Below, piece after piece: positions 5,084 through 59,457 of a DNA stretch of 64,000 nucleotides (its first letter is position 1; every line of letters begins with the position of its first letter). Under the pieces are notes generated by a model. It was not told the origin of the DNA. It made no database searches and saw only the letters and a list, made by a program, of their open reading frames with translations. Position numbers and translations under genes: made by a program. The stretch lies in NCBI RefSeq assembly GCF_900104815.1, contig NZ_FNTD01000004.1, forward strand, positions 6,819,001 through 6,883,000, written 5' to 3'. Source of the DNA: Streptomyces misionensis (GTDB lineage Bacteria > Actinomycetota > Actinomycetes > Streptomycetales > Streptomycetaceae).

Positions 5084-5136
5084 GGCGTCTCCGTAGGGGT
5101 GTCAGGGGGTGGCCGGGATGGCGTCGCGCGGCGGGG

Positions 5137-16693: not shown

Positions 16694-17998
16694 TCAGCCC
16701 GCCGTCGCCGCGTCCTCGGCGACCGGTGTCCGCGCCGGGTCGGGCGCGGCGAGGCCGCGCAGCGGGCGGTTCCTGACCACGTAGCAGATGAGCAGCACGT
16801 ACAGACCGCCGAACAGTCCCAAGGTGGGACGCAGGCCGATGTTCTGGGCGAGCCAGCCCGTGGCGAAGATGCCGACCGGCGCGGCGGCGAAGGCCATGGC
16901 CATCACCGCGCCCCAGACCCGGCCCAGCGCCTCCGGCGGGGTGGAGCGCTCCACCACGCCGGTGACCAGGGGATTGACCGGTCCGCTGGCCAGTCCGATG
17001 GCGAAGGTGATCACCAGCATGATCCACAGCCCGGGCTCGGCGACCATGGCCAGCCGGGCGGCGCAGATCAGCGCGAAGCAGCCCACGAAGGTGGCCCACC
17101 GGTTGGCCAGCAGCCTGCGGCTCGCCGGGGCGTAGGCGAACGAGCCGACGACCGCGCCGATGCCGTTGGCCGCGAGCAGCAGCCCCACCGCCCGCTCGCC
17201 GCCCAGCAGTTCACGGCTGTAGACCGGCAGCACCACCGGGGTCAGCGCGTCGTCCAGGAAGTTGGTGCACACCACCACGCTGATGATGGCCGCGAGGACC
17301 GGGGTGCGAAGGATGTAGCGCGCGCCCTCGGTGACCTCCCGCAGCAGGCCAGGACGGGCCCCGGCGGGCTCCGCCGCGTCGCCCGGCCCCGCCTTTCGGG
17401 CCCGCGGGGCGGGCTTTCCGCCCGGCACCGCCATGATCAGCAGGGCCGACGCGAGGAACGTGCCCGCGTCCACGTAGAGCACGGCGGTCGGGCCGGTCAG
17501 GCCCGCCATCAGCGCGGCGAGCGGCGGGCCGATCACGAACGCCACCCGCTGGGCCGAGGCGAACAGCGAGTTGGCGGTCTCCGAGCGCACCTGCCCGCGG
17601 GCGGTCACCCGGGGCAGCAGCGCCAGCCGGGCCGCGGCGCCGGGCGCGTCGGCGAGGGTGCGCAGGAACAGCAGCGCCATCAGGGCCGGCAGGGCCAGAC
17701 CGATGGTGCCGTGCAGCAGCGGCACCGCGGCCATGCACGCCCCGGCGGCCAGGTCGGCGACCACACTGGTGCGCTTCGGGCCGACCCGGTCGGCGATCAC
17801 GCCCCCGGCGAGCCCGGCCACGATCATGGGCAGCGCGTTGGCGAACCCCGCCGCGCCCGCCTCGGTGGCGCTGGACGAGATCTGCAGCACGTAGAGCGGC
17901 ACCGCGACCAAGGTCATGGTGTTGCCGATCCAGGACAGGTAGTTCGCCGTCACCAGCGCGGTGAGGGGGCGCCTGTCACGGGTGGTCGTCGATGTCAT
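16694..17998 (-). CDS. MFS transporter, probable cluster exporter
   Basis: A 434-residue major facilitator with about 12 predicted membrane helices. The loop motif ADRVGPKRT, close to the MFS motif A, lies between helices 2 and 3, and there is a long charged central loop (about residues 195-225). It resembles the MFS_3/enterobactin-exporter type. Its ATG overlaps the stop of the A-less NRPS gene (ATGA), making it the last gene of the minus-strand biosynthetic operon. Export of, or self-protection against, the cluster product is the natural role, inferred from position. Confidence 0.85.
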   Translation of the reverse strand: MTSTTTRDRRPLTALVTANYLSWIGNTMTLVAVPLYVLQISSSATEAGAAGFANALPMIVAGLAGGVIADRVGPKRTSVVADLAAGACMAAVPLLHGTIGLALPALMALLFLRTLADAPGAAARLALLPRVTARGQVRSETANSLFASAQRVAFVIGPPLAALMAGLTGPTAVLYVDAGTFLASALLIMAVPGGKPAPRARKAGPGDAAEPAGARPGLLREVTEGARYILRTPVLAAIISVVVCTNFLDDALTPVVLPVYSRELLGGERAVGLLLAANGIGAVVGSFAYAPASRRLLANRWATFVGCFALICAARLAMVAEPGLWIMLVITFAIGLASGPVNPLVTGVVERSTPPEALGRVWGAVMAMAFAAAPVGIFATGWLAQNIGLRPTLGLFGGLYVLLICYVVRNRPLRGLAAPDPARTPVAEDAATAG

Positions 17999-20900
17999 GC
18001 GGAGGGGCTCTTCTTCTCTCGGGTCAGTTCGGCGAGCATGCGGTTCACTTCGTGCAGGGACATGCCCGCCGTCGAGGGCGGTTGGGCGCCGCGCCGTCGG
18101 GTCAGCCGGGTGAACTCCTCGGCGGCGCCGGCCGCCGCGGCCCGCACGGCCGCCCCGTCGACGGCGTCCGGGTCGAACTTCCAGGTGAACACCGCTTCCT
18201 CGCCGTCGGTTTCGAAGAGGACGGCGACGGCGTGGTAGCGCGTGGCGTCGTCGTTCCCCGATGGCCCGATCTGCTCGCCGACGGTGAACAACCGCCCGTT
18301 CTCCGCGCCCGCGAGCAGCGTACCCAGGTAGTTGAAGGACAGCTCGGCCCGTCCCCAGTCGGCGGCCTCGCGGCGCACCTCGGGATCGGCGGACCAGCGC
18401 AGCGCCTGGTAGCCCTTGCCGCCGTCCGGTACGGCGTCCAGGGCGCGGCCGACCTGCCGCAGGTGGCGGGCGGGGTCGTCGGCGAAGGGCAGGCGGAGCG
18501 GGTGGCTGGTGGCGTGGAAGCCCACGGCACGGGCCGGGTCCCAGCCGTCCGCGAGCGGCAACTCCCGCCCGGGGGCGATGAGATCGAGGACGACGTCCCG
18601 GCCGCCGAACCAGGGCCGGGTGGCTCGGGCGACCGCCGTCAGGGCCACGGCCGGCCGGTCCGTGGTGTCGGCGCCCGGCGGCAGCGCCGCACGCACGCGG
18701 TACGCCGTCTCGCCGCCGATCCGGTCCGGGCCGCCGGTGCGGCAGCCCAGCGGGGCGGCGCCCGCCAACTGGTCCCGCCAGTACTCGCGTTGCCCGCGCA
18801 CATCGTGGTCGCGCCAGGCGGCCGCGTACACCGACGGGTGCCGCGCCTCGGGGGCCGGCCGGGCGCCGTGGTAGGCCCGTTCGAGGTCGTCCACCAGGAT
18901 CTGCCAGGACAGGCCGTCCACGACCAGGTGGTGCGCGGTCAGTACGATCCGGTCGGGCTCGCCGGGGATCAGGGAGGCCGCGAACAGCGGTCCCTCGCGC
19001 AGGTCGAAGGCGGCGCGGTGGGCGTCCGCCACCCGGGCCGGATCGGCGCCCGGCGCCTCGACGCGCCACAGCCGGCGGTCCGTGGCGTCCACGTGCCAGC
19101 CGGTGTCCGTGCGCCGGAACGCCGAGCACAGCCCGGGATGGGCGGCCGCCACCCGTTTGACGACCACGGCCAGCCACTCGGGGTCCAGCGGCCGGGCGGC
19201 GGTGAGCACCAGGCTGTGCGCCCACAGCTCCGGGTGCGGCAGGCCGCCCTCCAGCAGGTCCTCCTGCTCGGGGCCGACCGTGCCCTCCGCCGCCGCGGTA
19301 CTGCCCTGGAAGGTGTCCGACTCCGGCCGGACCAGGGCCAGTTGGCCGCGCATGGTGGGGGCGCGGAACAGCTGCCGGGCGGTGAGGGCGAACCCGGCCC
19401 GGCGCAGCGCGTGGGCCAGCCGGATCGCGGTCAGGGACGTACCGCCGCACTCGAAGAAGTTGTCGTCCGGGCCGGGCTCGGTGCCCAGCACCTCCCGCCA
19501 GACCGCGGCGATCCGGCGCAGCTCGCCGGGGTCCACCGGGGCGGGCGCCGCGGGCGCCGCCGCGGCCGTCCGCGCCGGGGCGGGAGCGGGGGCCGCGGCG
19601 CGGGCGCGCAGCGGTTCGTCCGGCCGCTCCACGAAGACCCGCACCAGTTCCAGGAGACGCCCCACGAGCCGGTCGACGGTGGCGTCGGTGAACAGCTCGG
19701 TGCGGTACTCGAACCGCCCGTACATCCGGTCACCCGCCCGCCACCAGCCGACCGTGATGTCCATCGGCGACACGCCGTCCTCGACCTCGACGCCGTGCAC
19801 CTCGGCGTCGGGCACCCGGACCACGGTGTCGTCGAAGTCCAGCACGAGGTGCATGGTCTGGAGCAGGGGGTACCGGTCGAGGCTCCGCTCGGGCGACACC
19901 GCGTCGACGATCTCGCTGAAGGGCACCTCGCGGTGGTCGGCGACGGCGGCCGAGGCCTGCCGCACCGCGTGCAGGATCTGCTGCGGCGTCGGGTCGGCGG
20001 GCAGCCTGGCGCGCAGCGGGACGTTGGTCAGCAGGAACCCGATCAGGTCGTGGGTCTCGGGCCGGCCGCGGGTCGCGCTCGGCAGGCCGACGACGATGTC
20101 CCGCGACCCGGTCTCCTCGTGCAGCAGGCCCACGTAGACGGCCAGCAGCGCGTCGGACAGGGTCAGCCGCCGGGCGCGGCACATCGCGAGGAAGGCGGCG
20201 CTGAGCCCGTCGTCGAGCCGGAAGTAGTGGTGCTTGCCCTCGTGCCCGCGGCCCTCGGGGGGCGCGTCGTAGGGCAGCGGCAGATGCGCCGGCACGCCCG
20301 CCAGGTGGGCGCGCCAGAAGTCGCGGTGCGCCCGGCGGCGTTCACCGGTGAAGAACCGCCGCTGCCAGACGGCGAAGTCGCCGTACTGCACGGGGAGTTC
20401 GGGAACCCGCGCGGGACGGTTCTCGCGGGCCGCGCGGTAGTGCTCCAGGAGTTCGCGGTTGAGGCGGACGAACGACCACTGGTCGGTCACCGAGTGGTGC
20501 ATCGTCTCGATCACCTGGTACTCGTCGTCCGCGCCGCGCACCACGACCACCCGCAGCAGCCCCCCGGCGGCGAGGTCGAACGGCCGTCGCACCAGCGCCC
20601 GCACGGTCTCCTCGACGGCGTCCGGTTCGGCCCGCAGGTCGAAGAACTCGACCGGCGTCGCGAACTCCTCGCTCACCCGCAGCACCGGCAGGCCGTCGCG
20701 GACCTCCACCCGGGAGCGCAGCAGTTCGTGGCGGCGCACCAGCGCGGTGACGGCCGCCCGGAACGCCTCCTCGTCGAAGGCGCCCTTGAACCGCAGCCCG
20801 GTGCTGATGTTGTACGTGTGCCGGCCGGGATCGAGCTGGTCGAGGATCCAGATGCGCTCCTGGTCCAGACCCAGCGGGGAGACGGAGCGGTCGCCGGAGC

Positions 20901-21030
20901 GCCGGGTGAGTTCCGGCTCGGCGGCCGGGCCCTCCTCCCCGTGCCGCAGTCGGCGCTGGAGGGCCGCCCGCTGCTCGGGCGTCAGCCGGGCCAGCCGGTC
21001 GGCGACGGTGCGCGGTCGAGTCACGGTCAC
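17995..21030 (-). CDS. A-less NRPS: condensation - PCP - epimerization-like
   Basis: A 1011-residue peptide synthetase lacking an adenylation domain. Residues 1-35 form a docking-like helix (ARLTPEQRAALQRRLR). A condensation domain (about 50-490) has the active site HHSVTDQ. A PCP (about 500-575) has DDNFFECGGTSLTA with the phosphopantetheine Ser near 530. The last domain (about 590-990) has HHLVVDGLSWQ near 700 and the epimerase-type FNYLG motif. The normal EGHGRE motif instead reads IAPGRE, losing the Glu needed for epimerisation, so it may act differently. The PCP must be loaded in trans; the stand-alone A protein across the divergent promoter is the candidate. Start GTG overlaps the upstream LLM stop. 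Confidence 0.88.
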   Translation of the reverse strand: MTVTRPRTVADRLARLTPEQRAALQRRLRHGEEGPAAEPELTRRSGDRSVSPLGLDQERIWILDQLDPGRHTYNISTGLRFKGAFDEEAFRAAVTALVRRHELLRSRVEVRDGLPVLRVSEEFATPVEFFDLRAEPDAVEETVRALVRRPFDLAAGGLLRVVVVRGADDEYQVIETMHHSVTDQWSFVRLNRELLEHYRAARENRPARVPELPVQYGDFAVWQRRFFTGERRRAHRDFWRAHLAGVPAHLPLPYDAPPEGRGHEGKHHYFRLDDGLSAAFLAMCRARRLTLSDALLAVYVGLLHEETGSRDIVVGLPSATRGRPETHDLIGFLLTNVPLRARLPADPTPQQILHAVRQASAAVADHREVPFSEIVDAVSPERSLDRYPLLQTMHLVLDFDDTVVRVPDAEVHGVEVEDGVSPMDITVGWWRAGDRMYGRFEYRTELFTDATVDRLVGRLLELVRVFVERPDEPLRARAAAPAPAPARTAAAAPAAPAPVDPGELRRIAAVWREVLGTEPGPDDNFFECGGTSLTAIRLAHALRRAGFALTARQLFRAPTMRGQLALVRPESDTFQGSTAAAEGTVGPEQEDLLEGGLPHPELWAHSLVLTAARPLDPEWLAVVVKRVAAAHPGLCSAFRRTDTGWHVDATDRRLWRVEAPGADPARVADAHRAAFDLREGPLFAASLIPGEPDRIVLTAHHLVVDGLSWQILVDDLERAYHGARPAPEARHPSVYAAAWRDHDVRGQREYWRDQLAGAAPLGCRTGGPDRIGGETAYRVRAALPPGADTTDRPAVALTAVARATRPWFGGRDVVLDLIAPGRELPLADGWDPARAVGFHATSHPLRLPFADDPARHLRQVGRALDAVPDGGKGYQALRWSADPEVRREAADWGRAELSFNYLGTLLAGAENGRLFTVGEQIGPSGNDDATRYHAVAVLFETDGEEAVFTWKFDPDAVDGAAVRAAAAGAAEEFTRLTRRRGAQPPSTAGMSLHEVNRMLAELTREKKSPSA

Positions 21031-22175
21031 TGGCTCCTGTCGGCGTCGGCAGTGGTGGTGGACGGGCCGGCCGGCAGCAGCTCGGCCAGCCGGGGCAGGC
21101 CGGCCAGCACGTCCCCGGCCGGCAGCCCGAAGTCGACGAGGCAGCCCACCTCGTCGGCGCCCGCCTCGGCGAGCCGGGCCAGCACCCGGGCGGCCTTGGC
21201 CGGCGTGCCCAAGAGCGAGGGCCCCGCCAGGTAGTCCTGGAAGGCGGCCTCCAGCAGGACGGGTTCGTCGCCGCCGCCGGTCTGCGCCCGGTAGGAGGAC
21301 AGGTAGTCGTGCAGCGCGGGCCGCAGCCTGTCCTCCACGTCGGGCTCCTCGCTGACGTGCGCGTGGGTCATCACCACGACGTCACCGCGGCCGGCGTGCC
21401 CGGCGTCCCGCCAGGCGGCCCGGTACCGGGCCACGTTCTCCCGCAGCCGGGGCAGGGTCTGGCCGAGCAGCGCGGTCATCACGCCGTACCCGGCGGTGCC
21501 CGCGGCCCGGAAGGTCTCCGGGTGCCCGGCCGCGGTGATCCACACCGGCAGCTCGGGCTGCACCGGGCGCGGCTGGGTGAGCACCCGCGCCGTGCCGCCC
21601 GCGGTGCCGGGGAAGGACAGTTCCTCGCCCGCCCACAGCCGCCGCACCTGTTCGACGGTGCGCATCAGCGTCTTCTTGCGCTCGTCGTACGGCTCCCGGG
21701 CCAGCACGAAGTCGTCCGGGTGCCAGCCGCTCGCGAAGGAGACGCCCACCCGGCCGCCGGAGATGTTGTCCACCACCGCCCACTCCTCGGCGACGCGGAC
21801 CGGGTGGTGCAGCGGCGCGGCGACGCTGCCGGCCCGCAGCCGCAGCCGCCGGGTCACGGCCGCCACCGCGGCGGCGAGGACGGAGGGGTTGGGGTGCGAG
21901 CCGCCGAAGTCCACGAAGTGCCGCTCGGGGAACCACGCGGCGTGGAACCCCCGCTCGTCGGCGAACTCGCAGGCCCGCAGCATCATCGCGTAGTAGTCGG
22001 GGGCCGCGAGCGCGCGGGCCTGCGGGAAGAAGTACAGGCTGAGCCGGACCGGCGGGACCGCGTCCGGCGGCCCGTCGGCGGCCGGGGCCCGCCGGGCGCG
22101 TTCGCGCAGCCGCAGCCGCAGGGCCGTGCGCTGCTCGGGGGTCAGCTGTCCGAGCCGTTCGCCGATGTCGCTCAC
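21027..22175 (-). CDS. MupA/Atu3640-type luciferase-like monooxygenase
   Basis: A 382-residue FMN-dependent monooxygenase of the natural-product LLM type, usually found fused in or next to NRPS-PKS lines. Diagnostic segments are HAAWFPERHF near 75, NPSVLAAAVAAVT, VAAPLHHPVRVAEEWAVVDN and SFASGWHPDDFVLA. Members are thought to oxidise carrier-bound intermediates. The N-terminal 30 residues (GQLTPEQRTALRLRLRERAR) closely resemble the start of the next NRPS and probably serve as a docking helix. The gene lies between the PKS and the A-less NRPS with 4-base overlaps on both sides, placing its action around the polyketide extension step. Confidence 0.87.
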   Translation of the reverse strand: MSDIGERLGQLTPEQRTALRLRLRERARRAPAADGPPDAVPPVRLSLYFFPQARALAAPDYYAMMLRACEFADERGFHAAWFPERHFVDFGGSHPNPSVLAAAVAAVTRRLRLRAGSVAAPLHHPVRVAEEWAVVDNISGGRVGVSFASGWHPDDFVLAREPYDERKKTLMRTVEQVRRLWAGEELSFPGTAGGTARVLTQPRPVQPELPVWITAAGHPETFRAAGTAGYGVMTALLGQTLPRLRENVARYRAAWRDAGHAGRGDVVVMTHAHVSEEPDVEDRLRPALHDYLSSYRAQTGGGDEPVLLEAAFQDYLAGPSLLGTPAKAARVLARLAEAGADEVGCLVDFGLPAGDVLAGLPRLAELLPAGPSTTTADADRSQ

Positions 22176-25159
22176 GCCTGTCCCTCCCCTTCGCCCTGAC
22201 CCTCGATCTCGGCCAGCAGCTCCAGCAGTTCCGCGTCGTCGCGCTCGTCGAGGAGCTCTTCCACCCGCGCCGCGAAGTCGCCGAACGTGGAGTGCTCGTA
22301 CAGGTCCTGGAGGCGGACCTCGACCAGCAGCTGGTCGTTGACGACGGAGATCAGCTGCGCCGCCTGGAGCGAGGTGCCGCCCAGTTCGAAGAAGTTGTCC
22401 CGCGCGCGGATCGCCGGGCCGCCGAACGACTCCTGCCACAGGTCGGCCAGCAGGGACCGCGTCTGCGCGCCCTCGGACGCGTCCCCGGCGCCCGGCTCGT
22501 CCTGCCCGGAGCGGGCCGCGACGACCTCGGGGACACCGGGCGAGGCCGTACCCGGCGCGGCCACGTCCCGCGCGGGCGTGCCGTCCGGGCCGGCGGCGGG
22601 CCAGTGGCGGGTGTCGGCGAACGCGTAGCCCGGGACCCGGGCCGGGGCGGCCGGCGGGGCGACCAGGTCGTCGGTCGCGCAGCCCGCCGTCCAGGCGGCG
22701 CCGAGCGCGGCCAGGTGCACCGTCGCCTCGTCGCGCCGCCCGTCGCCGAGGAGTTCGGCGATGACGGGAGGGTGCTCCGCGCCCCGGATGGCGCGCCGCA
22801 GCTGCGAGGCGAACGTCCGCCCCGGACCGGCCTCCAGCACCACGTGCGGCGCCGCGTCGAGCAGCACCTCCACCCCCTCGGCGAAGCGGACGGTGGCGCG
22901 CAGCTGACGGCCCCAGTAGGCCGGGTCGGTGGCCTGCGCCGCGTCCAGCGGCGCCCCGGTGACGTTGGACAGCACCACCTCGCGCGGCGCGTGCAGGGCG
23001 AGGGTCCCCACCACGTCGGTGAACGCCTCGGCGGCCTCGGCCATGAACCGGGAGTGGAAGGCGTGCGCGGTGGCCAGCCGGCGCACCCGCACCCCCGCGG
23101 CGGCGCAGCGGCGTTCCACCTCGGCCAGGTGCTCCGCCGCCCCGCCGAGGACCACGGTGTCGGGCGCGTTCACCGCGCAGACGTCCACCGGCAGCCCCGC
23201 CGCCAGCTCCCGCGCCGTGTTCTCCCCGGTCAGCACGGCGGCCATCACACCGGCCGGCGCCCGGCTCATCAGCCGGCCGCGTTCGACCACCGCCCGCGCC
23301 CCGTCCGCCTCGGAGAACACGCCCGCCCAGGTGGCGGCGACCAGTTCCCCGACGCTGTGGCCGAGCAGGACCGACGGGGTGACACCGTGCCGCCGCAGCC
23401 CGTGCAGCAGCGCGAGCTCCACGCTGAACAGCAGCGGCTGGACGACATCGGTGCGCAGCCAGCGCGGATCGTCGTCCGGCCAGGTCCAGCAGCCCTCCAG
23501 GTCCGGCCCGCCGCACGCGCGGACGAGAGCCCGGGTGCCCGCCCACTCCCGGGCGAAGTCCGCGTCGGCCGCGAGCAGTCCGCGCCCGGTACCGGCCAGC
23601 GCCACCCCCTGGCCGGGCAGGAGCACGGCCACCGTCGGCTCCGGCACCGCCTTCGTCCGGGCCGACGCCGACTCCAGCGCGTCCGCGAGCGCGGCGCGCG
23701 CCGACGCCTCGTCCGCCGCCTCGACCGGGCAGGCCCAGCGGTACGGCAGCCGCCGCCGGCCGTGCCAGAGCGTGCCGAGGACGTCGCCGACGGGCCGGGT
23801 GCCCCCGCGCACCGCGGCGGCGAGGCCGGCCGCGGTGCGCTCCAGCGCCTGCGGGCTCGCGGCGGAGAGCACCGCGAGTCCGCGCCCGGGCGGGCTCGCG
23901 GGCGGCTTCGGCGGCCCGGCGGCGACCGCCGGTTCGGCGAGGATCACATGGGCGTTGGTGCCGCCCAGCCCGAAGGAGCTGACCGCCGCGTACCGGGTGC
24001 GCCCGGCGGGCCAGGGCATCGCCTCGCGCGGCAGGTGGAAGCGGTCCGCGCCCAGCGGCGCGTCCGGGCCGTCCCCGGGCTGTGCGGGGACCGGCGGGAT
24101 CACCCCGTGCTGGACGGCGAGCACCGCCTTGATCAGACCGACCACGCCCGCCGCGGTGTCCGTGTGCCCGATGCCGGCCTTCACCGCGCCCAGCGCGCAC
24201 GGCTCCGCCGCGTCGCCGTACGCCTGGGCCAGCGCCGCCAGTTCGACCTGGTCGCCGAGTTCCGTCGCGGTGCCGTGCGTCTCGATGAAGCCGATGTCCG
24301 CCGGTTTGCGCCCGGCCACCGCCAGCGCCTCCTCCAGCACCGCCGCCTGGCCGCGGGGACTGGGCGCGACGAGGCTCATCCGGTCGGCGCCGTCGTTGTT
24401 GACCGCGCTGCCCAGCAGCACCGCCCGGGCACCGCGCCCGGCCTCCTCGGCCCGGCGCAGCACCACCACCCCGGCACCGCTGGCGGGCACGGTGCCCCGG
24501 CTGCCCCGGGTGAAGGGCCGGCAGCGGCCGTCGGGGGAGAGCACGTCGCCCTCCTGGTAGGTGTAGCCCGCGCCCGGCGGCAACTGGACGGTGACCCCGC
24601 CCGCGATCGCGAGGTCGCACTCGTAGGTGAGCAGGCTGCGCAGGGCCACGTGGACGGCGACCAGCGAGGTGGAGCAGGCGGTCTGCACGGTGAGGGCCGG
24701 CCCGGTGAGGCCCAGCCGGAAGGCGAGCGAGGTCGCCAGGTAGTCCTTGTCGTTGCCGAGGGAGATCTGCTGGCGGCCCGCGGCCCGCACCAGCGTGGGG
24801 TCGGCGTCCACATAGCGGTGCCGGTAGCCGCTGTCGCCGCAGCCCAGGAAGACCCCCACCCGGCCCGGGTCGCGCTCGGTGTCGACGCCCGCGTCCTCCA
24901 GCGCCTGCCAGGCGACCTCGGTGACGACCCGCTGCTGGGGGTCGGTCACCGCGGCCTGGGTCGGGCTCATGCCGAACAGCTCCGCGTCGAACCGGTCGAC
25001 GCGGTCGATCCCGCCGACGCCGAGGGTGCCGTCGGCCAGGACACCCGGCAGTGCCACGTGCCCGCGGACCACGTCGGCCCAGAAGGTGTCCGGGTCGGCG
25101 GCTCCGGGCACTCGGAGGGCCATTCCGATCACCGCCACCGCGTTGTCGGGTGCGTGCAT
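22172..25159 (-). CDS. Type I PKS: ketosynthase - acyltransferase - ACP
   Basis: A 995-residue single-module polyketide synthase. The KS (about 5-430) has the catalytic triad: TACSTSL Cys near 160, HGTATELGD His and GHTDTAAG His. The AT (about 520-830) has GHSVGE near 600 and HAFHS, the motif associated with malonyl-CoA. The ACP (about 895-975) has DNFFELGGTSLQA, followed by an acidic tail. There is no KR, DH or ER, so the beta-keto group should remain after two-carbon extension. It sits 25 bases after the Gly-predicted NRPS, matching a route from Gly-PCP to a 4-amino-3-oxobutanoyl unit. ATG 25159 has GAGGCGG upstream. Confidence 0.92.
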   Translation of the reverse strand: MHAPDNAVAVIGMALRVPGAADPDTFWADVVRGHVALPGVLADGTLGVGGIDRVDRFDAELFGMSPTQAAVTDPQQRVVTEVAWQALEDAGVDTERDPGRVGVFLGCGDSGYRHRYVDADPTLVRAAGRQQISLGNDKDYLATSLAFRLGLTGPALTVQTACSTSLVAVHVALRSLLTYECDLAIAGGVTVQLPPGAGYTYQEGDVLSPDGRCRPFTRGSRGTVPASGAGVVVLRRAEEAGRGARAVLLGSAVNNDGADRMSLVAPSPRGQAAVLEEALAVAGRKPADIGFIETHGTATELGDQVELAALAQAYGDAAEPCALGAVKAGIGHTDTAAGVVGLIKAVLAVQHGVIPPVPAQPGDGPDAPLGADRFHLPREAMPWPAGRTRYAAVSSFGLGGTNAHVILAEPAVAAGPPKPPASPPGRGLAVLSAASPQALERTAAGLAAAVRGGTRPVGDVLGTLWHGRRRLPYRWACPVEAADEASARAALADALESASARTKAVPEPTVAVLLPGQGVALAGTGRGLLAADADFAREWAGTRALVRACGGPDLEGCWTWPDDDPRWLRTDVVQPLLFSVELALLHGLRRHGVTPSVLLGHSVGELVAATWAGVFSEADGARAVVERGRLMSRAPAGVMAAVLTGENTARELAAGLPVDVCAVNAPDTVVLGGAAEHLAEVERRCAAAGVRVRRLATAHAFHSRFMAEAAEAFTDVVGTLALHAPREVVLSNVTGAPLDAAQATDPAYWGRQLRATVRFAEGVEVLLDAAPHVVLEAGPGRTFASQLRRAIRGAEHPPVIAELLGDGRRDEATVHLAALGAAWTAGCATDDLVAPPAAPARVPGYAFADTRHWPAAGPDGTPARDVAAPGTASPGVPEVVAARSGQDEPGAGDASEGAQTRSLLADLWQESFGGPAIRARDNFFELGGTSLQAAQLISVVNDQLLVEVRLQDLYEHSTFGDFAARVEELLDERDDAELLELLAEIEGQGEGEGQA

Positions 25160-25184
25160 CTGCGTCCGCCTCGATTCCTGGTAC

Positions 25185-31300: not shown

Positions 31301-31519
31301 GAGCAGTTCGCCGTCGAAGGTGCCGGTGAGGCGGTAGGCGGCGACCACCGTGTGCATCCCCGGCCGTTCGGCCAGGGCGTCGGCGAGGTGGACGCCGACC
31401 TGGTTGGGCGCGAGCGGCCAGCCGGCCCCGGCCGGCCGGGCGGCGCCCGCCGGGTCACCGCCGTCGATGGCGCTGGCGTCCGGGCCCGGCCCCACGAGCC
31501 CGCCACTGCGGTCGATCAC
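28334..31519 (-). CDS. NRPS module C-A-PCP, predicted threonine
   Basis: A 1061-residue NRPS module. The C domain motif is ASHLVVDDQ near residue 162, where the first His is Ser but the catalytic second His is kept. A domain: HTSGSTGRPKG near 618, NMYGITE, YRSGDQG, RGFRIELGEV and ANGKLDK. PCP: DNFFDLGGTSLLA near 1010. The specificity positions read D-F-W-S-V-G-M-V-H-K, a threonine-type code. GTG 31519 has GGAGGC 5 bases upstream. Having an N-terminal C domain, it should accept an acyl or aminoacyl starter from a separate carrier, plausibly the stand-alone PCP encoded divergently. Confidence 0.92.
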   Translation of the reverse strand: MIDRSGGLVGPGPDASAIDGGDPAGAARPAGAGWPLAPNQVGVHLADALAERPGMHTVVAAYRLTGTFDGELLAERFRALVRRHPALSSRLVDDGPALGMARSDTAPEWRDETLPPSAADDDGADRRLAECLRPIDTRHGPLMRGALLRREDGDADLVLTASHLVVDDQAMETAVAEVLTGDTTRSPGDYPGWATAAAGAALRGAGRAAARRAELAALPLGTEPAWGCGDAAAGDADGGQLPFTVPDDVWRKLAGTARTLGISRYSALTAAVGLVLARNGGTDASLVGSFVTRRPAAQRHTIGYFSNTVPVPVRLAEDGTVAGFLRTCHRQCLAAYRDADLPLFDVLPAGHQSGAGPLTAAVAPLWTPPPLRLPGLTARPLPHPFAGAAKFPLLVYVDMAAEGAARGLLQFRHRWFSAEQAALFTRQLVAVLREFAERPDARLVSVSVLDEADRQRVLDAGLGAPLAPEELSVPALFTRRAGLSPDRIAVNDGRTALRYAEVDERSDTVARALAEAGVRAGDRVGVRMERSCDLIVALLGVLKTGAAYVPLDPSYPEARLALVIGDADVRVVVGDADSRPADLPEHIDWLPVHTRPRDPARPLPAVDPDLPCYAIHTSGSTGRPKGVLVTHRNVTSLLNATREDFGLGPDDVWSLFHSFAFDFSAWEIWVCLLTGGRLVVVPRAVSRNPEEFHQLLEDEEVTVLSQTPTAFGLLLATDRLARGGLSVRLVVFGGEPLDTRTLAPWFERYPGARVENMYGITETTVHSTTHTVTREDTRTGSRVVGRPLPGWEIYVLDAHGRPVAPGVAGELHVGGAGVALGYLDRPELTAERFTTDRHPRVPGGRLYRSGDQGRLLPGGVLEHLGRLDDQVKVRGFRIELGEVRDALLRDPSVTSAAVVVHGAGTAEARLDAYVVLADGGSTDGLLRRAAARLPEYMVPQTVTALTALPVTANGKLDKARLPAPEPDADAPAGPAGSPDAAGDVLDRVVGVWRDVLDVPVAPDDNFFDLGGTSLLALRLKTALRGAGLPELALKEVIRHATPAAMTALLRDRAGAPGEAAG

Positions 31520-31645
31520 GGCTTGCCTCCAGTCGGTGCGTGTCCTGGTGGTGACGGGCTGGACCGCGGCGCGGGCGGCGCCGCGGAACACCGGCCGGCC
31601 CGGGTGTCTTCACCGGCGCGCCGGTGCGGCCCCGTGCGGACCGGC

Positions 31646-32890
31646 TCACTCATAGTCGATCCAGTCGACGGCCTCGATCGCGGCCACCGTCTCGGCGAGC
31701 GCCGCCGGGTCGGGAGCGGCCCCGCTGAGCGCGGCCACGTTGCCGGCCGCGCCGATCCGCCAGTCGACGGGCGCGCCCGGTTCGACCAGTGGCACCACCC
31801 GCTCCACGAACGGCAGCCGGCGCAGCTCCGTCAGGTCGCGCACCGCCTTGACCCGGGTGGCCCCCACGGGCGGCACGATCAGATAGTGGAAGACGGCGGG
31901 ACCGCGCCCCACCGGGTCGGGGGTGGTGTACGGGCGGCCCAGCGCCGCCTTGACGGCGATGTCGGCCGGCACGCTGCTGCCCGCGCGCACGCCGAGGTCG
32001 TCCACCCAGGCGCCCAGGCGGCCGTTGACCTCGATGACCCGCGGGCCGTCGGGGGTCAGCTTGATCTCGACGTCGGCCACCCCGTGCACACCGAGGGCGC
32101 CGACCGCCCGGCACGCCAGGTCGGCCACCTCCCGGACCAGGTCGTCCGGTACCACCGACTGCCCGCCGTAGGCGCCGCGTTCCCGGAAGGGCTCGGCGAG
32201 CGCGAACTTGCTGCTGACGAAGACCGGGCGCACATCGTCGCCGCGGGCGACGCAGTCCACCGCCATGTAGTCGCCCCACGGAGCCTCGACCGGCATGCCG
32301 ACCAGCAACTCCTCCACGACCACCGCCGTTTCGGCCGGCCCGCCGATCCCGCCGAGCGCCGCCGCGACCACCGCGCGGCACTCGTCCGCCGTGGCGACGG
32401 CGGTGGTGTTGCGGCTCGACGCGCCGACGACCGGTTTGACGATCGCGGGCAGTCCCACCCGCGCGATGGCCGCGTCCACCTGGTCGGCGGCGGTCACCGT
32501 GCAGAACCGCACGGTGTCCAGGCCCACTTCGGCGAACCGCTCGCGCTGGCGGTCCTTGTTGGTCACCGCCTCCCGCAGGGCGGGCGAGTGGTACGGCAGG
32601 CCGAGCGCCGCGGCCAGCCGGACGGTGTCGGCGATGCGGAATTCGCTGAACGTGATGATTCCGGCGGGGTTCAGCCCGCGCAATTCATCGACGACCGACG
32701 CCTCGGTGCGTCCCGCGGAGTTCACCACCCGGCCCAGTCTGCCGAGGACCGGGAGCATCTGCTGTGCGTGTTCCGAGTCCGCGGCGACGAATGCCATTTC
32801 GCAGCCATTGGCGCGGGCGACCTGGGAAAGACGGAGCGGTGCGAGGCTTCCGACGTCGTAGACGGCGAGGAGTACCGGTGAATCGCTCAA
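31646..32890 (-). CDS. ATP-grasp ligase, first gene of the minus-strand biosynthetic operon
   Basis: A 414-residue ATP-grasp enzyme. LPAIVKPVVGASSRNTT carries the ATP-contacting Lys. VVEELLVGMPVEA and ADVEIKLTPDGPRVIEVNGR provide the Glu and Asn of the magnesium site. Such proteins join a carboxylate to an amine through an acyl-phosphate, often forming a peptide bond outside the NRPS. TTG at 32890 is preferred, with GGAAGGA about 8 bases upstream; an in-frame TTG at 32908 is the alternative. A 126-base gap separates it from the Thr module. Substrate unknown; it could cap or couple the product, or prepare a building block. Confidence 0.85.
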   Translation of the reverse strand: MSDSPVLLAVYDVGSLAPLRLSQVARANGCEMAFVAADSEHAQQMLPVLGRLGRVVNSAGRTEASVVDELRGLNPAGIITFSEFRIADTVRLAAALGLPYHSPALREAVTNKDRQRERFAEVGLDTVRFCTVTAADQVDAAIARVGLPAIVKPVVGASSRNTTAVATADECRAVVAAALGGIGGPAETAVVVEELLVGMPVEAPWGDYMAVDCVARGDDVRPVFVSSKFALAEPFRERGAYGGQSVVPDDLVREVADLACRAVGALGVHGVADVEIKLTPDGPRVIEVNGRLGAWVDDLGVRAGSSVPADIAVKAALGRPYTTPDPVGRGPAVFHYLIVPPVGATRVKAVRDLTELRRLPFVERVVPLVEPGAPVDWRIGAAGNVAALSGAAPDPAALAETVAAIEAVDWIDYE

Positions 32891-33205
32891 GTGGGTGGTC
32901 CTTCCCAAGTGTTCGACGGTTCTCTCGCCGGGCCACAGCGGGGTTCACGCGGCGAGAAAGGCATCCGTGTACATGAGAGGCGGAAGAAGCATAGCCAGCG
33001 ACCAGGGCCCGGCAAACATCGGTTTTCGGCCACCGCCTCCCGGATGGTTTCGCCGGAGGTTGCCGGGTGACCTGCGTCACATTCACCGACGAAAGGTTTC
33101 GCCATCTGCGGCGCCGACCAATTTCATAGCGTTGGCAGCCCAATCCCGTCCGTTGGTCCGCGTCGGTCTCGGAATCGTCGTGCCTTTGATGAGATGAGGA
33201 GCCAG
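32891..33205. promoter_or_regulatory. Divergent promoter region of the NRPS-PKS cluster
   Basis: This 315-base region separates the ATP-grasp gene (leftward) from the stand-alone PCP gene (rightward) and is noticeably less GC-rich than the flanks. GACCAA (33116-33121) and TTGGTC (33154-33159) form an inverted pair 32 bases apart. GGTTTCGCC occurs twice (near 33046 and 33096). No reliable -35/-10 pair stands out. No pathway-specific regulator gene lies inside the cluster, so control probably acts here from outside. Confidence 0.55.
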
Positions 33206-33454
33206 ATGAGCCAGACTCCCGGTACGGAAAACGGTGCGGACCGCATTCCGGTGTTGTGGGCAGAAGTCCTCGGAACCGGTTCCGACCCGAATCTCGGTTT
33301 TCTGGAGAACGGTGGGGATTCCTTCCGGGCCCTCACTCTCTCCACCATGATCCACGAGGAGACGGGCGTCGAGGTGGATTTCCTCGACATCCTGGAGAGC
33401 GAGAACGCCCACGCATTGCGCGAACGCGTGCGCTCCGCGGCCGACTCGTCCTGA
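33206..33454 (+). CDS. Stand-alone peptidyl/acyl carrier protein
   Basis: An 82-residue carrier protein. The phosphopantetheine site is FLENGGDSFRALTLS with the Ser near residue 40, and the acidic helix MIHEETGVEVDFLDILE follows. ATG 33206 is chosen for GAGGAGCC upstream rather than the ATG at 33194. It heads the plus-strand operon, followed by a type II thioesterase and a stand-alone A domain that most simply loads it. It may carry a starter or a building block while the downstream oxidoreductase acts. Confidence 0.88.
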   Translation: MSQTPGTENGADRIPVLWAEVLGTGSDPNLGFLENGGDSFRALTLSTMIHEETGVEVDFLDILESENAHALRERVRSAADSS

Positions 33455-33506
33455 CGTATTCGGCCGACGGGCCCCGGAAATGAGAATCCGCGATCGGAGG
33501 AAACAC

Positions 33507-34244
33507 GTGTCCGCTCCGCGCGTCGCGGAAGAGACGCCCTGCCCAGAACCGGCCGCTCCCCGGCCCCTCCGGATGATGTGCGTCCCCTACGCGGGGGCGG
33601 GCGCCGGTGTGTACCGGGGATGGCGGCAGCGACCCGGCGCGGTCCTCGACGTGGTGCCCATCCAACTCCCCGGACGCGAGGAGGAGTTCGCGGCGCCGTT
33701 CCACCGCACGGTCCGGGCGGCCGCCGAGGACGTCGCCGGCCGGGTCGCCGGGCACGCCGACGGGGCCCCCTACGTCCTCTTCGGCCACAGCCTCGGCGCC
33801 CTCCTCGCCTACGAGGCGACCCGCCACCTGCTGGAGACCGGCGGCCCCCCGCCCCGGCACCTGGTGGTCAGCGGCTCGGTGAGCCCCCGGCGCCGCCGCC
33901 CCGAGAAACTGTCCGACGATCCGGTGCGGGCCGTCGCCCAGTTGCGCGAACTGACCGGGCAGCCGGAAGCCTTCGCCGACCCCGAGATCCGCGACCTCCT
34001 GCTGCCCGCCCTGCGCGCCGACATCGCGATGTCCGAGGGCTACCGCCCGCAGCCGCACCGCCCGCTGCCGGTCCCGCTCACGGCACTTCGCGGCACCGCC
34101 GACGCCTCCGTCCCGGCCGCCGACTGGCGGGACTGGGCGGCCTACACCTCGGCGGGCTTCCAGGCCGTCGAGTTCCCCGGCGGCCACATGTACCTCACCG
34201 AGTCCTGGCCCGCCGTGCTGCGCGCCCTCGCGGAGCTGGTGTGA
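33507..34244 (+). CDS. Type II thioesterase
   Basis: A 245-residue alpha/beta hydrolase of the GrsT/RifR editing-thioesterase type. The nucleophile motif is FGHSLGALLAYE near residue 95. The Asp lies in the GTADASV region and the His in FPGGHMYL near residue 230. PYAGAGAGVYRGW near the N-terminus is typical of the family. These enzymes clear stalled or misloaded carriers. Because no synthetase in the cluster carries a terminal thioesterase, it could also take part in release. GTG 33507 has GGAGG 6 bases upstream and is preferred to ATG 33480. Confidence 0.88.
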   Translation: MSAPRVAEETPCPEPAAPRPLRMMCVPYAGAGAGVYRGWRQRPGAVLDVVPIQLPGREEEFAAPFHRTVRAAAEDVAGRVAGHADGAPYVLFGHSLGALLAYEATRHLLETGGPPPRHLVVSGSVSPRRRRPEKLSDDPVRAVAQLRELTGQPEAFADPEIRDLLLPALRADIAMSEGYRPQPHRPLPVPLTALRGTADASVPAADWRDWAAYTSAGFQAVEFPGGHMYLTESWPAVLRALAELV

Positions 34245-34276
34245 CGACCCCCGGTACGCAACGAAAGGAGCCGCCC

Positions 34277-35887
34277 GTGGCAGCGGCCGCCCCCGCGACC
34301 CTCCATGAGCTGTTCGCCCGCTCCGCCGCCCGCCATCCGGACCGCACCGCGCTGGAGGTGGACGGCCGGACCTTCGGCTACGCGGAGCTGGACCGCCTGT
34401 CGGACCGGCTGGCCGGACGGATCCTGCGCCGGACCGGCCACCGCCCCGCACGGGTGGGGCTGCTGGCCGCCCGCAGCCTCACGGCCTACGCGGGCTACCT
34501 GGCCGCGCTGCGGCTGGGCGCCGCGGCGGTGCCCATCAACCCCGCGCACCCGCCCGCCCGGCAGCTGGCCGTCGTCAAGGACGGCAACCTCGACCTCGTC
34601 GTCGGCACGCCCCCGCGCGCCCGGGGCGGTACCCAGGCGCCGCCCGACCTCGGCGTGCCCCTGCTGCTCGTCGACGAGGCGTCGCTGACGGAACCGGCCG
34701 ACGGCACCGGCGCGGCGCGGGGCGACGACGGCACGGACCCGGGCGGACCGGCCGCCGCGCCGCCGCGGCCGGACGACATCGCCTACATCCTGTACACCTC
34801 GGGCTCCACCGGAGCGCCGCGCGGTGTGCCCGTGCGGCACGCGAACATCGTGCCGTTCATCGACTGGGCCGTCGACGCCTGCGGTATCGGCCCGCAGGAC
34901 CGCACCTCCCAGAACGTCGAGTTCTCCTTCGACGTGGCCGTCTACGAGATGTTCGTGACCTGGGCGGCCGGCGGCGCGCTGGTCGTGCCCCGCGCCAACG
35001 ACGTGCTGCGGCCCTCCCGGTTCGTCAACGAGCACCGGATCACGCACTGGTTCTGCGTGCCGTCCCTCGGCAGCCTCGCCGAGCGCACCGGCGCGCTCGC
35101 CCCCGACTCGATGCCCACCCTGACCAAGGTCATGCTGGGCGGCGAACGGCTCACCGCCGAACAGGCGCGGCAGTGGGCCGAGGCCGCGCCCAACGCCGTA
35201 CTGCACAACATGTACGGGCCGACCGAGATGAGCGTCGTCTGCGTGCACAAGGACCTCGGGGGCGCCGGCCGGCTCGTGCCCGCCGGCTCCAACGGGACGA
35301 TGCCCATCGGCGAGGTGCTGCCGCACCTGGAGAGCGTCGTGCTCGGGGAGGACGGCCTGCCCGCCGAGACCGGCGAGTTGTGCCTGCGCGGGCCCCAGCG
35401 GTTCGCCGGCTACCTCGACCCGGCCCACAACGAGGGGCGGTTCCTGCGCCGCCGGCCCGGGGAGCCCGCGGTCGCCTTGCCGGCGGGGGAGGAGCCCCGC
35501 GACACGGACTGGTACCGCACCGGCGACCTGGTCCGCCCGGAGGGCGAGGGACTGGTCTTCCTGGGCAGGCTGGACGACCAGGTGAAGGTGCGCGGCCACC
35601 GCATCGAAGTGGGCGAGGTGGAGGCGCAGTTGACGCGCCACCCCGCGGTCCGGGAGGCCGTCGTGGTCGCCCACGGGTCCGGGCCGGAGGCGACGCTGGT
35701 CGCCCACTACACGGGCACCGCCACCCCGCCCGCCGCACTCACCGGCTTCCTGCGCGGGCGGCTCCCGCACTACATGCTGCCGAGCCGCTTCCTGCACCGG
35801 GAGTCGTTCCCGCTGAACACCAACGGCAAGATCGACCGCCGCTCGCTGCCCGCCCCCGATCCCGGCCCCGGACACACACCGCACTGA
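34277..35887 (+). CDS. Stand-alone adenylation domain protein
   Basis: A 536-residue amino-acid adenylating enzyme without condensation or carrier domains. Core motifs are LYTSGSTGAPRG near residue 175, NMYGPTE, WYRTGD, RGHRIEVGEVE and NTNGKIDRR. Specificity positions read by eye give D-V-Y-F-M-G-M-V-V-K, which I cannot match to a known code. The retained Asp suggests an alpha-amino acid. GTG 34277 has AAAGGAG 6 bases upstream. It could load the stand-alone PCP, the A-less NRPS, or both. An Ala/Gly/Pro-rich insert (about 115-165) precedes motif A3. Confidence 0.88.
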   Translation: MAAAAPATLHELFARSAARHPDRTALEVDGRTFGYAELDRLSDRLAGRILRRTGHRPARVGLLAARSLTAYAGYLAALRLGAAAVPINPAHPPARQLAVVKDGNLDLVVGTPPRARGGTQAPPDLGVPLLLVDEASLTEPADGTGAARGDDGTDPGGPAAAPPRPDDIAYILYTSGSTGAPRGVPVRHANIVPFIDWAVDACGIGPQDRTSQNVEFSFDVAVYEMFVTWAAGGALVVPRANDVLRPSRFVNEHRITHWFCVPSLGSLAERTGALAPDSMPTLTKVMLGGERLTAEQARQWAEAAPNAVLHNMYGPTEMSVVCVHKDLGGAGRLVPAGSNGTMPIGEVLPHLESVVLGEDGLPAETGELCLRGPQRFAGYLDPAHNEGRFLRRRPGEPAVALPAGEEPRDTDWYRTGDLVRPEGEGLVFLGRLDDQVKVRGHRIEVGEVEAQLTRHPAVREAVVVAHGSGPEATLVAHYTGTATPPAALTGFLRGRLPHYMLPSRFLHRESFPLNTNGKIDRRSLPAPDPGPGHTPH

Positions 35888-35947
35888 GCCGCGCGCCCGG
35901 CCGGGGTGCGCGCGCCCACCACCACTTCGACCCGCTGCGGAGGAGAC

Positions 35948-37096
35948 ATGTCAGGCACCACGACCGGTGAGGTACCGAAGATCCTCCTCATCGGTTCCGG
36001 TGACCTCACCATACGGTTGGGTCATCTGCTGGCGAGCGCGGAACCGGAGACGCGGCTCGTCCTCGCGAGCCGCTCGGCGGAGCGCGCCACCCGCTTCGCG
36101 AACCTGACCAAGCTGGCGGCCGCCAACCTCGGCCGGATACGCGAGGTCGAGGCGGTGGCCATGGACATGGCCGACGTGGACCGCACCGCGGAGCAGCTGA
36201 GGCGCATCCGGCCGACGATCATCTTCATGGGCGCCTCCATCCAGGCCGCCCGCGCCATCATGGACCTGCCCGAGGAACTGTTCCGACGGCTCGACGAGGC
36301 CCAGCTCGGCCCCTGGCTGCCGATGCACCTCACGCTCGTGCACGAGCTGATGCAGGCGGTGCGCCTCGCGGAGTCGCGGGCCGTCGTCGTCAACGGCGCC
36401 TACCCCGACGCGGTCGGCCCCGCCCTCGCGGCCCTCGACCTGGCGCCCGACGTCGGGATCGGCAACATCGGCAACATCGTGCCCGGCATCACCTGGGCGG
36501 CCGCCGAGGAACTGGGCGCCTCCCCGGCCGAGGTCGAGGTGAAGGCCGTGGGGCACCACTACTTCAGCCACCACGTGCACCGGTTCGGCGAGGCCCGCGG
36601 CATCCCGCACCTGCTCGACGTCCGCGTCGCGGGCACCCCGGCCACGGTCGACGCCGACGCGGCGTACGCCCGGCTGGCCGGCGGCCTGCGGCGCCAGGGC
36701 GGCAAGGAGGGCCAGCAGCTGACGGCCACCTCCGCCGCGCGCCTCCTGCTCGCGCTGCTGTCCCGCACGGAGCAGTCCCTGCACGCGCCCGCCCCCGGCG
36801 GCATGACCGGCGGCTACCCGGTCCGGGTCTCGCGCGAGGGCGTGCGGCTCGACCTGCCGCCCGGCACCGCCCCAGCGGCGGCCGAGGCCGTCAACCGGCG
36901 CTGCCAGCTCCTGGACGGGATCGAGCGCGTGGCCGCCAACGGCACGGTCCAGTTCACCGAGGAACGCATGGCGGTGATGCGGGAGATGCTGGGCTACCAC
37001 TGCACCGAGCTGAAGGTCGCCGACGCCCGCTCCGCGGCGACCGAACTCGCCGGGCGCTACGACGCCTTCCTGCGCCGGCACGGACTGGGCGCATGA
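35948..37096 (+). CDS. Rossmann-fold (saccharopine-dehydrogenase-like) oxidoreductase
   Basis: A 382-residue protein with an N-terminal NAD(P)-binding fold: ILLIGSGDLTIRLGHLLAS near residue 12 and LVLASRS at the end of beta-2, where Arg suggests NADP. A conserved-looking catalytic region contains VNGAYPDAVGPAL, GNIGNIVPG and GHHYFSHHVHRFGE, rich in His. The C-terminal part is helical. The fold recalls saccharopine/opine dehydrogenase-type enzymes, but I do not recognise the exact family. Position after the A domain suggests it tailors the activated amino acid or the finished product. GGAGGAG precedes ATG 35948, and its stop overlaps the HAD gene start. Confidence 0.7.
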   Translation: MSGTTTGEVPKILLIGSGDLTIRLGHLLASAEPETRLVLASRSAERATRFANLTKLAAANLGRIREVEAVAMDMADVDRTAEQLRRIRPTIIFMGASIQAARAIMDLPEELFRRLDEAQLGPWLPMHLTLVHELMQAVRLAESRAVVVNGAYPDAVGPALAALDLAPDVGIGNIGNIVPGITWAAAEELGASPAEVEVKAVGHHYFSHHVHRFGEARGIPHLLDVRVAGTPATVDADAAYARLAGGLRRQGGKEGQQLTATSAARLLLALLSRTEQSLHAPAPGGMTGGYPVRVSREGVRLDLPPGTAPAAAEAVNRRCQLLDGIERVAANGTVQFTEERMAVMREMLGYHCTELKVADARSAATELAGRYDAFLRRHGLGA

Positions 37097-37737
37097 CCGC
37101 GCACACCGTGCTCTTCGACCTCGACGGCGTGCTCGTGGACAGCCAGGACGCCGAGGTGCTGGCCCTGCTGGAGTTCGCCCGGACCGTGCACGCCCGGGTC
37201 CCGGCCGAGGGCTTCGCCGAGCGGGTCGCGGGCCGCCGGATGAGCGAGTCGGTCGCCATCATCGGGCAGTACACGGACACCCCGCTGCCGGACGACGCGG
37301 TGGAGCGGGTCCGGGAGATCGCCGAGCGGTATCTGGCGACCCGGTTGCGCGCCACCCCGGGGATGGCGGCGGCCCTGCGGGAGATCACGGCACCCGTGTA
37401 CGTGGTGTCGAACTCGCCCCTCGGCATGATCGAGGACCGCCTGCGCCGCACCGGCCTCGCCGGCTTCTTCACCGGCCCGCACTTCTCGGCGTACGAACTG
37501 GGCACGTGGAAGCCGGACCCCGGCCTCTACCGGCAGGCGGTACGGACGCTGGGGGCGGACCCGGAGACCGTCGTCGCCATCGAGGACAGCGAGGTCGGCG
37601 TGCGCTCCGCCCACGACGCGGGCCTGCGCGTCCACTGGTACCGGCCGGACCGGCCGCGGGAGAGCCGGTGCTCGGGGCGCGTCCGGGTGTTCGGGGACAT
37701 GAGCGCACTGCCCGCGCTGCTCGCCGCCCGGGTGTGA
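37093..37737 (+). CDS. HAD-superfamily phosphatase (beta-PGM-like)
   Basis: A 214-residue HAD hydrolase. The nucleophile motif is FDLDGVLVDS near residue 8, motif II is VVSNSP near residue 98, and motif III/IV are WKPDP and AIEDSEVGVRSA. The cap is the helical C1 type of beta-phosphoglucomutase-like enzymes. It overlaps the oxidoreductase by 4 bases and is the last gene of the plus-strand operon. It may remove a phosphate from a phosphorylated precursor or protected product. The phosphate donor is not obvious; the ATP-grasp enzyme forms only a transient acyl-phosphate. Confidence 0.82.
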   Translation: MTAHTVLFDLDGVLVDSQDAEVLALLEFARTVHARVPAEGFAERVAGRRMSESVAIIGQYTDTPLPDDAVERVREIAERYLATRLRATPGMAAALREITAPVYVVSNSPLGMIEDRLRRTGLAGFFTGPHFSAYELGTWKPDPGLYRQAVRTLGADPETVVAIEDSEVGVRSAHDAGLRVHWYRPDRPRESRCSGRVRVFGDMSALPALLAARV

Positions 37738-59439: not shown

Positions 59440-59457
59440 ACGCCTGCTCTGTCAGGT

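Follow-up and report, generated by a model that had tools for sequence, protein, structure and literature searches.

A candidate peptide-polyketide gene cluster with a MupA-type oxygenase and a condensation protein lacking an adenylation domain in Streptomyces misionensis

Among described systems, the mupirocin bimodule is one of those closest to the locus discussed here: a trans-acting luciferase-like monooxygenase (LLM) of the MupA family, dependent on flavin mononucleotide (FMN), follows a unit of ketosynthase (KS) and acyl carrier protein (ACP) that gives a beta-keto thioester. According to passages of PMC10952193, MupA oxygenates the alpha carbon of the beta-keto thioester on its own ACP. 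We consider a stretch of 64,000 nucleotides from Streptomyces misionensis (assembly GCF_900104815.1, contig NZ_FNTD01000004.1, positions 6,819,001 to 6,883,000), hereafter the window, in which positions 15622-37737, as judged from the sequence, bound a small and intact set of genes for a hybrid of peptide and polyketide. While the mupirocin bimodule works with an acyltransferase (AT) in trans and a KS0 module and uses no amino acids, in the window a nonribosomal peptide synthetase (NRPS) feeds the KS, and a condensation (C) domain follows. C, adenylation (A) and peptidyl carrier protein (PCP) domains lie with KS, AT and ACP domains, bearing active-site motifs, in adjoining genes, which marks the cluster as a hybrid of NRPS and polyketide synthase (PKS). 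We read it as an intact cluster for a short peptide-polyketide following the course given below, and we give this whole reading slightly less than an even chance; by analogy with MupA, the chain is probably hydroxylated by a flavin oxygenase while it grows and is then handed to a condensation protein that lacks an A domain. No characterised cluster or product with this gene set was found among the matches listed in literature searches, in agreement with a first-pass annotation that had left the locus without a matched product. The genes, with domains called by Pfam and NCBIfam scans at curated cut-offs, are as follows (E, epimerization domain).

15622..16611, minus strand, F420-type LLM, probable last gene of the operon (PF00296; TIGR03621 192.1 bits, under the cut-off of 213.15)
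16694..17998, minus strand, exporter of the major facilitator superfamily (MFS; PF07690, 126 bits)
17995..21030 (start perhaps 21024), minus strand, A-less condensation protein C-PCP-E (C, PCP and a second condensation-family stretch, no A)
21027..22175, minus strand, MupA/Atu3671-type FMN LLM with an N-terminal docking-like helix (TIGR04020 382.8 bits, cut-off 244.45)
22172..25159, minus strand, KS-AT-ACP (Pfam; AT motif HAFH, carrier motif LGGTSL)
25185..28337, minus strand, Gly module C-A-PCP (Pfam; code DILQLGCVW)
28334..31591 (true start probably about 31564), minus strand, Thr module C-A-PCP (Pfam, the C match being weak at 79 bits, cut-off 30.6; code DFWSVGMVH)
31646..32890, minus strand, ATP-grasp carboxylate-amine ligase-like protein (Pfam/NCBIfam; 67% identical to the G085 and G114 proteins discussed below)
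33194..33454, plus strand, free-standing PCP (PF00550; motif FLENGGDSF)
33480..34244, plus strand, type II thioesterase (PF00975)
34241..35887, plus strand, stand-alone A (PF00501; TIGR01733 330 bits; code DVYFMGMVV)
35948..37096, plus strand, saccharopine-dehydrogenase-like (SDH-like) NAD(P) oxidoreductase (by alignment; PF03435 only in 4 of 69 homologues)
37093..37737, plus strand, haloacid dehalogenase (HAD) phosphatase, not of FkbH type (PF00702, PF13419; 105 bits to PRK10563, cut-off 211)

How might such a product be assembled? The stand-alone A would load an alpha-amino acid onto the free PCP, and the Thr and Gly modules, whose codes can be read and whose order is backed by one relative, would extend this starter. 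KS-AT-ACP, whose domains are all recognised, would add a single unreduced malonate unit, and the MupA-type LLM, if it acts as MupA does, would alpha-hydroxylate the ACP-bound beta-keto thioester. The C-PCP-E protein might then condense the chain with a residue loaded in trans by another A, with E setting the D form. The product could be released by hydrolysis, most plausibly through the type II thioesterase, or by transfer to a nucleophile. ATP-grasp, SDH-like and HAD proteins may form a transferable cassette for making or attaching one more building block. The predicted product is X-Thr-Gly plus a 4-amino-2-hydroxy-3-oxobutanoyl unit, with a D residue at the end, and it would be exported by the MFS protein.

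The substrates of the two NRPS modules are read from their A-domain codes, whose positions were taken off a motif alignment and whose final K is tentative. The threonine section of PMC12283262 gives DFWSVGMVHK, linked there also to gamma-Cl-Thr, and another passage gives glycine codes of a DILQLG class; the Thr code of the window is identical to the former and its Gly code, DILQLGCVW(K), falls in the latter class. No halogenase turned up among the scanned cluster genes. In the KS the active-site residues lie in TACSTS, ETHGT and GIGHTD, and the AT has the motif HAFH, which we take to be a malonate signature. The KS-AT-ACP protein, which ends in an acidic helix (ERDDAELLELLAEIEG), gave no match to a ketoreductase (KR), dehydratase, enoylreductase or thioesterase (TE) domain in the Pfam/NCBIfam scans, and by its domains this module, upstream of the LLM, can make only a beta-keto thioester. 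Nor did the scans match a TE or reductase domain anywhere in the assembly line of the window. The first-pass annotation had proposed Thr, Gly and malonate as substrates and had pointed out that a terminal thioesterase or reductase is absent; the code comparison, the AT motif and the scans bear it out on each of these.

The nearest solved structure to the MupA-type LLM is PuwE (6ket). It is to be noted that the LLM and the C-PCP-E protein begin with the same LTPEQR helix, and they look as if both dock on the ACP of the PKS. Since the PKS yields a beta-keto thioester and the two proteins share this helix, the simplest reading is that the LLM hydroxylates the chain on this ACP. In the window, as in all 13 relatives in which both genes were compared, the LLM comes after the PKS and the condensing protein comes next, and the earlier suggestion that both act after the PKS is upheld. 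Because MupA alpha-hydroxylates an ACP-bound beta-keto thioester, an alpha-hydroxy-beta-keto unit is, by analogy, likelier than the tetramic-acid or statine-like precursor considered at first, neither of which fits well. A statine-forming hybrid requires a KR, which was not matched; a tetramic acid depends on release at the ACP by a terminal R* or TE domain, while in the window the assembly line gave no TE or reductase match and the ACP is followed by a C domain. In tetramic acid clusters of the nocamycin type, the DILQLG code presumably belongs to the Gly domain, and Gly is said to come last and to cyclise, while in the window a PKS and a C domain come after Gly. The code itself, printed in the nocamycin paper (PMC5466765), is of the same kind as that of the Gly module.

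In the C-PCP-E protein, the C domain carries HHSVTDQ, in which Gln replaces the Gly of HHxxxDG, the PCP has its serine in GGTSL, and the E-type domain is called by motif (HHLVVDGLSW and SFNYLG; TIGR01720 reaches 37.5 bits, under the cut-off of 74.2). It gave no AMP-binding match, and the Pfam matches listed for 40 homologues include none either, so that it is not a canonical C-A-PCP-E protein. These 40, from a strict full-length search (E<=1e-150, 7996 scored candidates), are a lower bound: at least 40 homologues are 39-95% identical over at least 94% of the length, with named hosts in Streptomyces, Kitasatospora, Saccharothrix and Micromonospora. All 40, which are of the size that includes E, have the carrier serine (39 as GGTS or GGSS, one as AGAS). 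In seven of seven A-less proteins from clusters of a second architecture, type II below (L087-L096, L102-L105), the phosphopantetheine serine is changed to proline (GGTPLL) and there is no E domain; as the two groups were gathered differently, this is a contrast and not a census. On this pattern, E and a carrier that can be primed seem to occur together, and the C domain seems to be retained where both have gone.

The free PCP has the motif F(L/M)ENGGDSF in all 13 relatives with a PCP match, and across the nine distant relatives it is constant save for one Leu/Met swap, in G926; in two further loci with related genes, G085 and G114, a free PCP was not matched. It stands directly upstream of Thr in all nine distant relatives (G926, BHT-5-2 and seven of type II), and this position together with the constant motif is the best evidence for a putative role as starter carrier. 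Asp at position 235 of an A domain indicates an alpha-amino acid substrate, and this residue in the stand-alone A points to a putative alpha-amino acid substrate. The stand-alone A is kept in the close group of the window, in BHT-5-2 and in all seven type II clusters.

The locus had at first been taken for a lone unusual cluster, which proved wrong: at least 40 C-PCP-E homologues and nine distant clusters place it in a family that extends over Streptomyces and allied bacteria. Proteins of the relatives were identified by tblastn with the window proteins and by eye, and genome counts include the genome of the window itself, the genome samples overlapping. The free PCP was matched in 10 of 392 genomes of the genus (E<=1e-8) and in 6 of 394 of the family (E<=1e-10), and comparison of all ten neighbourhoods in the genus found the core in nine. 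G389, one of the ten, is taken to be BHT-5-2, as its PCP has identical coordinates. The tenth, G065, was rejected as a member: its PCP (41%), LLM (46%) and A (47%) are related, yet 40 kb of sequence gave no PKS match. PCP, Thr, Gly, KS-AT-ACP, LLM, A-less C-PCP and MFS genes are common to the nine distant clusters (G926, BHT-5-2 and seven of type II), and with the close group of the window two architectures can be told apart. In type I (window, G020, G450) the order is Thr-Gly-PKS-LLM-C-PCP-E-MFS, and in G926, also of type I, PCP-Thr-Gly-PKS-LLM-C-PCP-E-MFS lie on one strand with 53-72% identity. G926 looks like Kitasatospora, its C-PCP-E being nearly identical to P0211 of K. aureofaciens; its own SDR, FkbH-like HAD and A-PCP-C genes (by eye) replace the ATP-grasp/HAD/SDH cassette and the A of the window. 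In type II (G272, G215, G1006, G325, G411, G1065, G074) PCP-Thr-PKS-LLM-C-PCP-MFS-C-TEII-A (TEII, type II thioesterase) lie on one strand and Gly on the other, together with a long NRPS gene whose called product of 2338-2499 aa is, to judge from its matches, probably dimodular. By eye, a P450-like gene comes after this long gene in six of them and near it in G074, which also has genes like serine hydroxymethyltransferase (SHMT) and A-PCP between TEII and A. BHT-5-2 (plasmid p1, NZ_CP081497.1, about 2.575-2.604 Mb) has the type II order yet C-PCP-E. It resembles the window in PCP, Thr, Gly, KS-AT-ACP, LLM, A-less C-PCP-E, MFS, TEII and A (46-64% identity) and differs in the divergent Gly gene, in extra SDR, free C, SHMT-like, KAS III-like and A-PCP genes of its own (by eye), and in a copy of leuA; we know of no product of this cluster. 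The MFS gene follows the A-less C-PCP(-E) gene in G020, G450, G926, BHT-5-2 and seven of seven type II relatives. No TE or reductase was noticed, by matching with window proteins and partly by eye, in the lines of G926, BHT-5-2 and type II, whereas G085 ends in a TE-like stretch; that the family as a whole releases its products without a TE is no more than a suggestion.

Where does the cluster begin and end? Minus-strand genes run from the F420-type LLM to ATP-grasp, and plus-strand genes from the free PCP to HAD. All 13 are found nearly full-length and in unchanged order in G020 and G450 at 89-97% protein identity. The MFS and F420-type LLM genes keep their positions there (92-96%; the latter 95% in G020 and 93% in G450, with only a partial best match of 34% in G926), and the next gene outward, 14851-15528, has no counterpart within 6 kb beyond; the left bound is thus placed at 15622. 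On the right, genes through HAD are common to four of four close relatives, the small open frame after it is variable, and an ABC transporter beyond the edge matched, among these four, only in another S. misionensis. This relative and NRRL S-31, compared from inside the Gly gene rightward, are 90-95% and 73-90% identical. The span 16694-37737 given in the first-pass annotation is therefore right at its right end and starts about 1 kb too late at its left, and its gene inventory, which the scans confirm for every gene named, had omitted the MFS exporter and the F420-type LLM. A 21-kb megablast against plasmids gave a coverage of at most 5%, in one place.

Several observations weigh against the course proposed above. 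The order PCP-Thr-Gly-malonate, as originally suggested, is favoured by the single operon of G926; the place of Gly within it is uncertain, because in eight of nine distant relatives the Gly gene is divergent and Thr lies directly before the PKS. Gly might be added later, to a chain made by PCP-Thr-malonate-LLM-C-PCP-E. In all seven type II clusters and BHT-5-2, PCP, Thr, PKS, LLM and C-PCP(-E) indeed share one strand apart from Gly, which in type II sits beside the long, probably dimodular NRPS gene. However, Thr-Gly-PKS is the order in the window, G020, G450 and G926 (53-72% identical), and we consider a late Gly rather unlikely, though worth keeping in mind. The starter is a further weak point, since the stand-alone A code DVYFMG is absent from the literature searched, and G926 has C-PCP-E and the free PCP, while within its 46.6 kb the matches to the stand-alone A do not exceed about 35%. 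Could free PCP, stand-alone A and TEII instead load the C-PCP-E protein, or shuttle the last residue, the chain starting at Thr? C-PCP-E has no A, so some A must act in trans, and the stand-alone A is retained across the close group, BHT-5-2 and type II. This alternative is doubtful, as the free PCP is directly upstream of Thr in nine of nine distant relatives, type II keeps A and PCP although its C-PCP has no loadable carrier serine, and G926 retains C-PCP-E without a close match to the stand-alone A. Also, the E motif is broken (SDLVVDRHSW) in two of the 40 homologues, P0215 and P0216, which weakens the assumption that E is always functional.

As for the oxygenase, passages of PMC10952193 report MupA to be inactive on free pantetheine, on acetoacetyl-ACP and on substrate held by a second ACP; since neither acetoacetyl-ACP nor the second-ACP substrate is turned over, its reaction is not freely transferable to the window. 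The LLM might cleave rather than hydroxylate, either by chain shortening of Baeyer-Villiger type (passages of PMC8739492 report that the LLMs CalD and MndB shorten chains) or by MOX-like alpha-hydroxylation of glycine and cleavage; four Gly A domains with MOX share DILQLGMIWK in a part of PMC12283262, which is close to the window Gly code, and cleavage would account for the missing TE. We find this improbable, more so than either of the two alternatives above, because the LLM stands by itself as a protein whose gene comes after that of the PKS and not after the Gly gene, with a condensing protein next to it in the window and 13 relatives. Finally, the cluster could be decayed or incomplete: the first His of the C motif in the Thr module is Ser (SHLVVDD), and there is no TE. 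This is hardly credible, as the presumed catalytic second His is retained, the frames of the window are open, and both SHLVVDD and the gene order recur in G020 and G450 at 89-97% identity.

The ATP-grasp, HAD and SDH genes appear to be a separable set, because they co-occur without this assembly line and are unmatched in the compared stretches of the nine distant core relatives (26.6-46.6 kb each; 44 kb in BHT-5-2, where an unrelated ATP-grasp-like gene lies, by eye, about 4 kb outward of the cluster). G085 and G114 have ATP-grasp (60-67%), HAD (37-38%) and SDH (41-44%) proteins beside a different NRPS-PKS that shares a Thr-like module, KS-AT, LLM and a related A (44%) with the window; in G085, by eye, a KR-like stretch extends the PKS and the LLM is followed by a C-A-PCP-TE protein, G114 being compared by matching alone. 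In G081 the cassette lies with a Rieske-type oxygenase gene (by eye), with no NRPS or PKS match in 53.7 kb. The ATP-grasp protein, matched in 17 of 392 genomes of the genus (E<=1e-60), is not a member of the BacD-type L-amino acid ligase equivalog (34.8 bits, cut-off 850), and its best solved relative is the L-amino acid ligase BL00235 (3vot, E 5.1e-10). What had been called a Rossmann oxidoreductase may be read more narrowly as a saccharopine-dehydrogenase-like oxidoreductase: the window protein has no Pfam or NCBIfam match and no solved relative (best E 0.16), and PF03435 matches 4 of its 69 homologues (P0040, P0044, P0045, P0080). It was matched in 14 of 199 genomes. The HAD protein (214 aa) is of HAD-IA type and not HAD-IIIC FkbH-like, so that a glyceryl starter of FkbH type was rejected. 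An azaserine-type cluster was likewise rejected, on description alone: passages of PMC10445470 mention two saccharopine dehydrogenases and an ATP-grasp protein that are not counted essential there. S. sclerotialus has homologues of C-PCP-E (68%) and ATP-grasp (71%); the scl cluster for scleric acid, which in the passages of PMC6335953 has one C-A-PCP (Pro) and no PKS or LLM, looks like another cluster.

Neighbourhoods of cassette homologues were also surveyed. In L027 (15887-20000) and L036, ATP-grasp, HAD, SDH and a Rieske-type oxygenase gene form one run with no NRPS match, and a DegT-like aminotransferase and a cupin lie some kb away. SDH homologues in L017, L018, L019 and L022 are, by eye, near methyltransferase, sulfotransferase-like, transaldolase-like, HAD and sulfate-activation genes (APS kinase; cysD and cysN types in some). 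Similar HAD/SDH neighbourhoods in G044, G119 and G031, with sulfate-activation, transaldolase-like and methyltransferase genes, gave no clue to a substrate, and neither did those of SDH in rhizobia and Planktothrix. On the rhizobial plasmids L074 and L075 the SDH homologue adjoins an alanine racemase gene in the vicinity of genes for a HAD-type hydrolase and a C45 peptidase; at a distance of about 6-12 kb, R. tumorigenes has genes for an amino-acid ABC transporter and an FAD oxidoreductase. G279 has SDH (49%) and ATP-grasp (55%) in a different biosynthetic setting; G037 and G381 (ATP-grasp 40-41%) and L070-L072 (SDH 28-33%) were compared by matching alone.

A second, diverged 2-isopropylmalonate synthase gene (leuA) was seen beside the cluster in five of six relatives checked (G272:C1:179474-181189, G215:C1:3814916-3816607, G325:C1:7730273-7731913, G411:C6:111182-112858 and, in BHT-5-2, G389:C2:2602531-2604225), and each of these genomes has another copy with a better score at a distance from the cluster. 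A third, also distant, is present in G272 and G411, and G074 and the genome of the window have only one full-length copy. Precursor supply or self-resistance is a possible role of the extra copy. Elsewhere in the window, 4349-6507 holds a lycopene cyclase gene adjoining a methyltransferase gene, a carotenoid-type locus close to the cluster; 11343-13928 encodes a regulator-like protein with HTH, NB-ARC and TPR; and a tRNA-Ala (tgc) of 93 bases called by ARAGORN at 60048-60140, within the open frame 59401-61218, is probably a false call.

What would the family mean? Tentatively, and with clearly less confidence than for the cluster itself, we propose an undescribed actinobacterial class of NRPS-PKS for amide peptides with an alpha-hydroxy-beta-keto unit or, if oxidised on, a vicinal tricarbonyl, possibly covalent hydrolase inhibitors. 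A dedicated A-less protein, mostly with HHSxTDQ or PHSFxDQ, would take the hydroxylated chain off the ACP, and in relatives that lack E, because the carrier is unprimable (Ser to Pro, seven of seven), the C domain would have to serve an acceptor held elsewhere or a free nucleophile. Were this borne out, expressing a single cluster would link dozens of clusters that lack an assigned product, in Streptomyces, Kitasatospora, Saccharothrix and Micromonospora, to a compound. The same experiment would test a rare step, the flavin-dependent alpha-hydroxylation of an aminoacyl-derived beta-keto thioester, and would show how a condensation protein manages with no A domain and, in part of the family, with no carrier that can be used.

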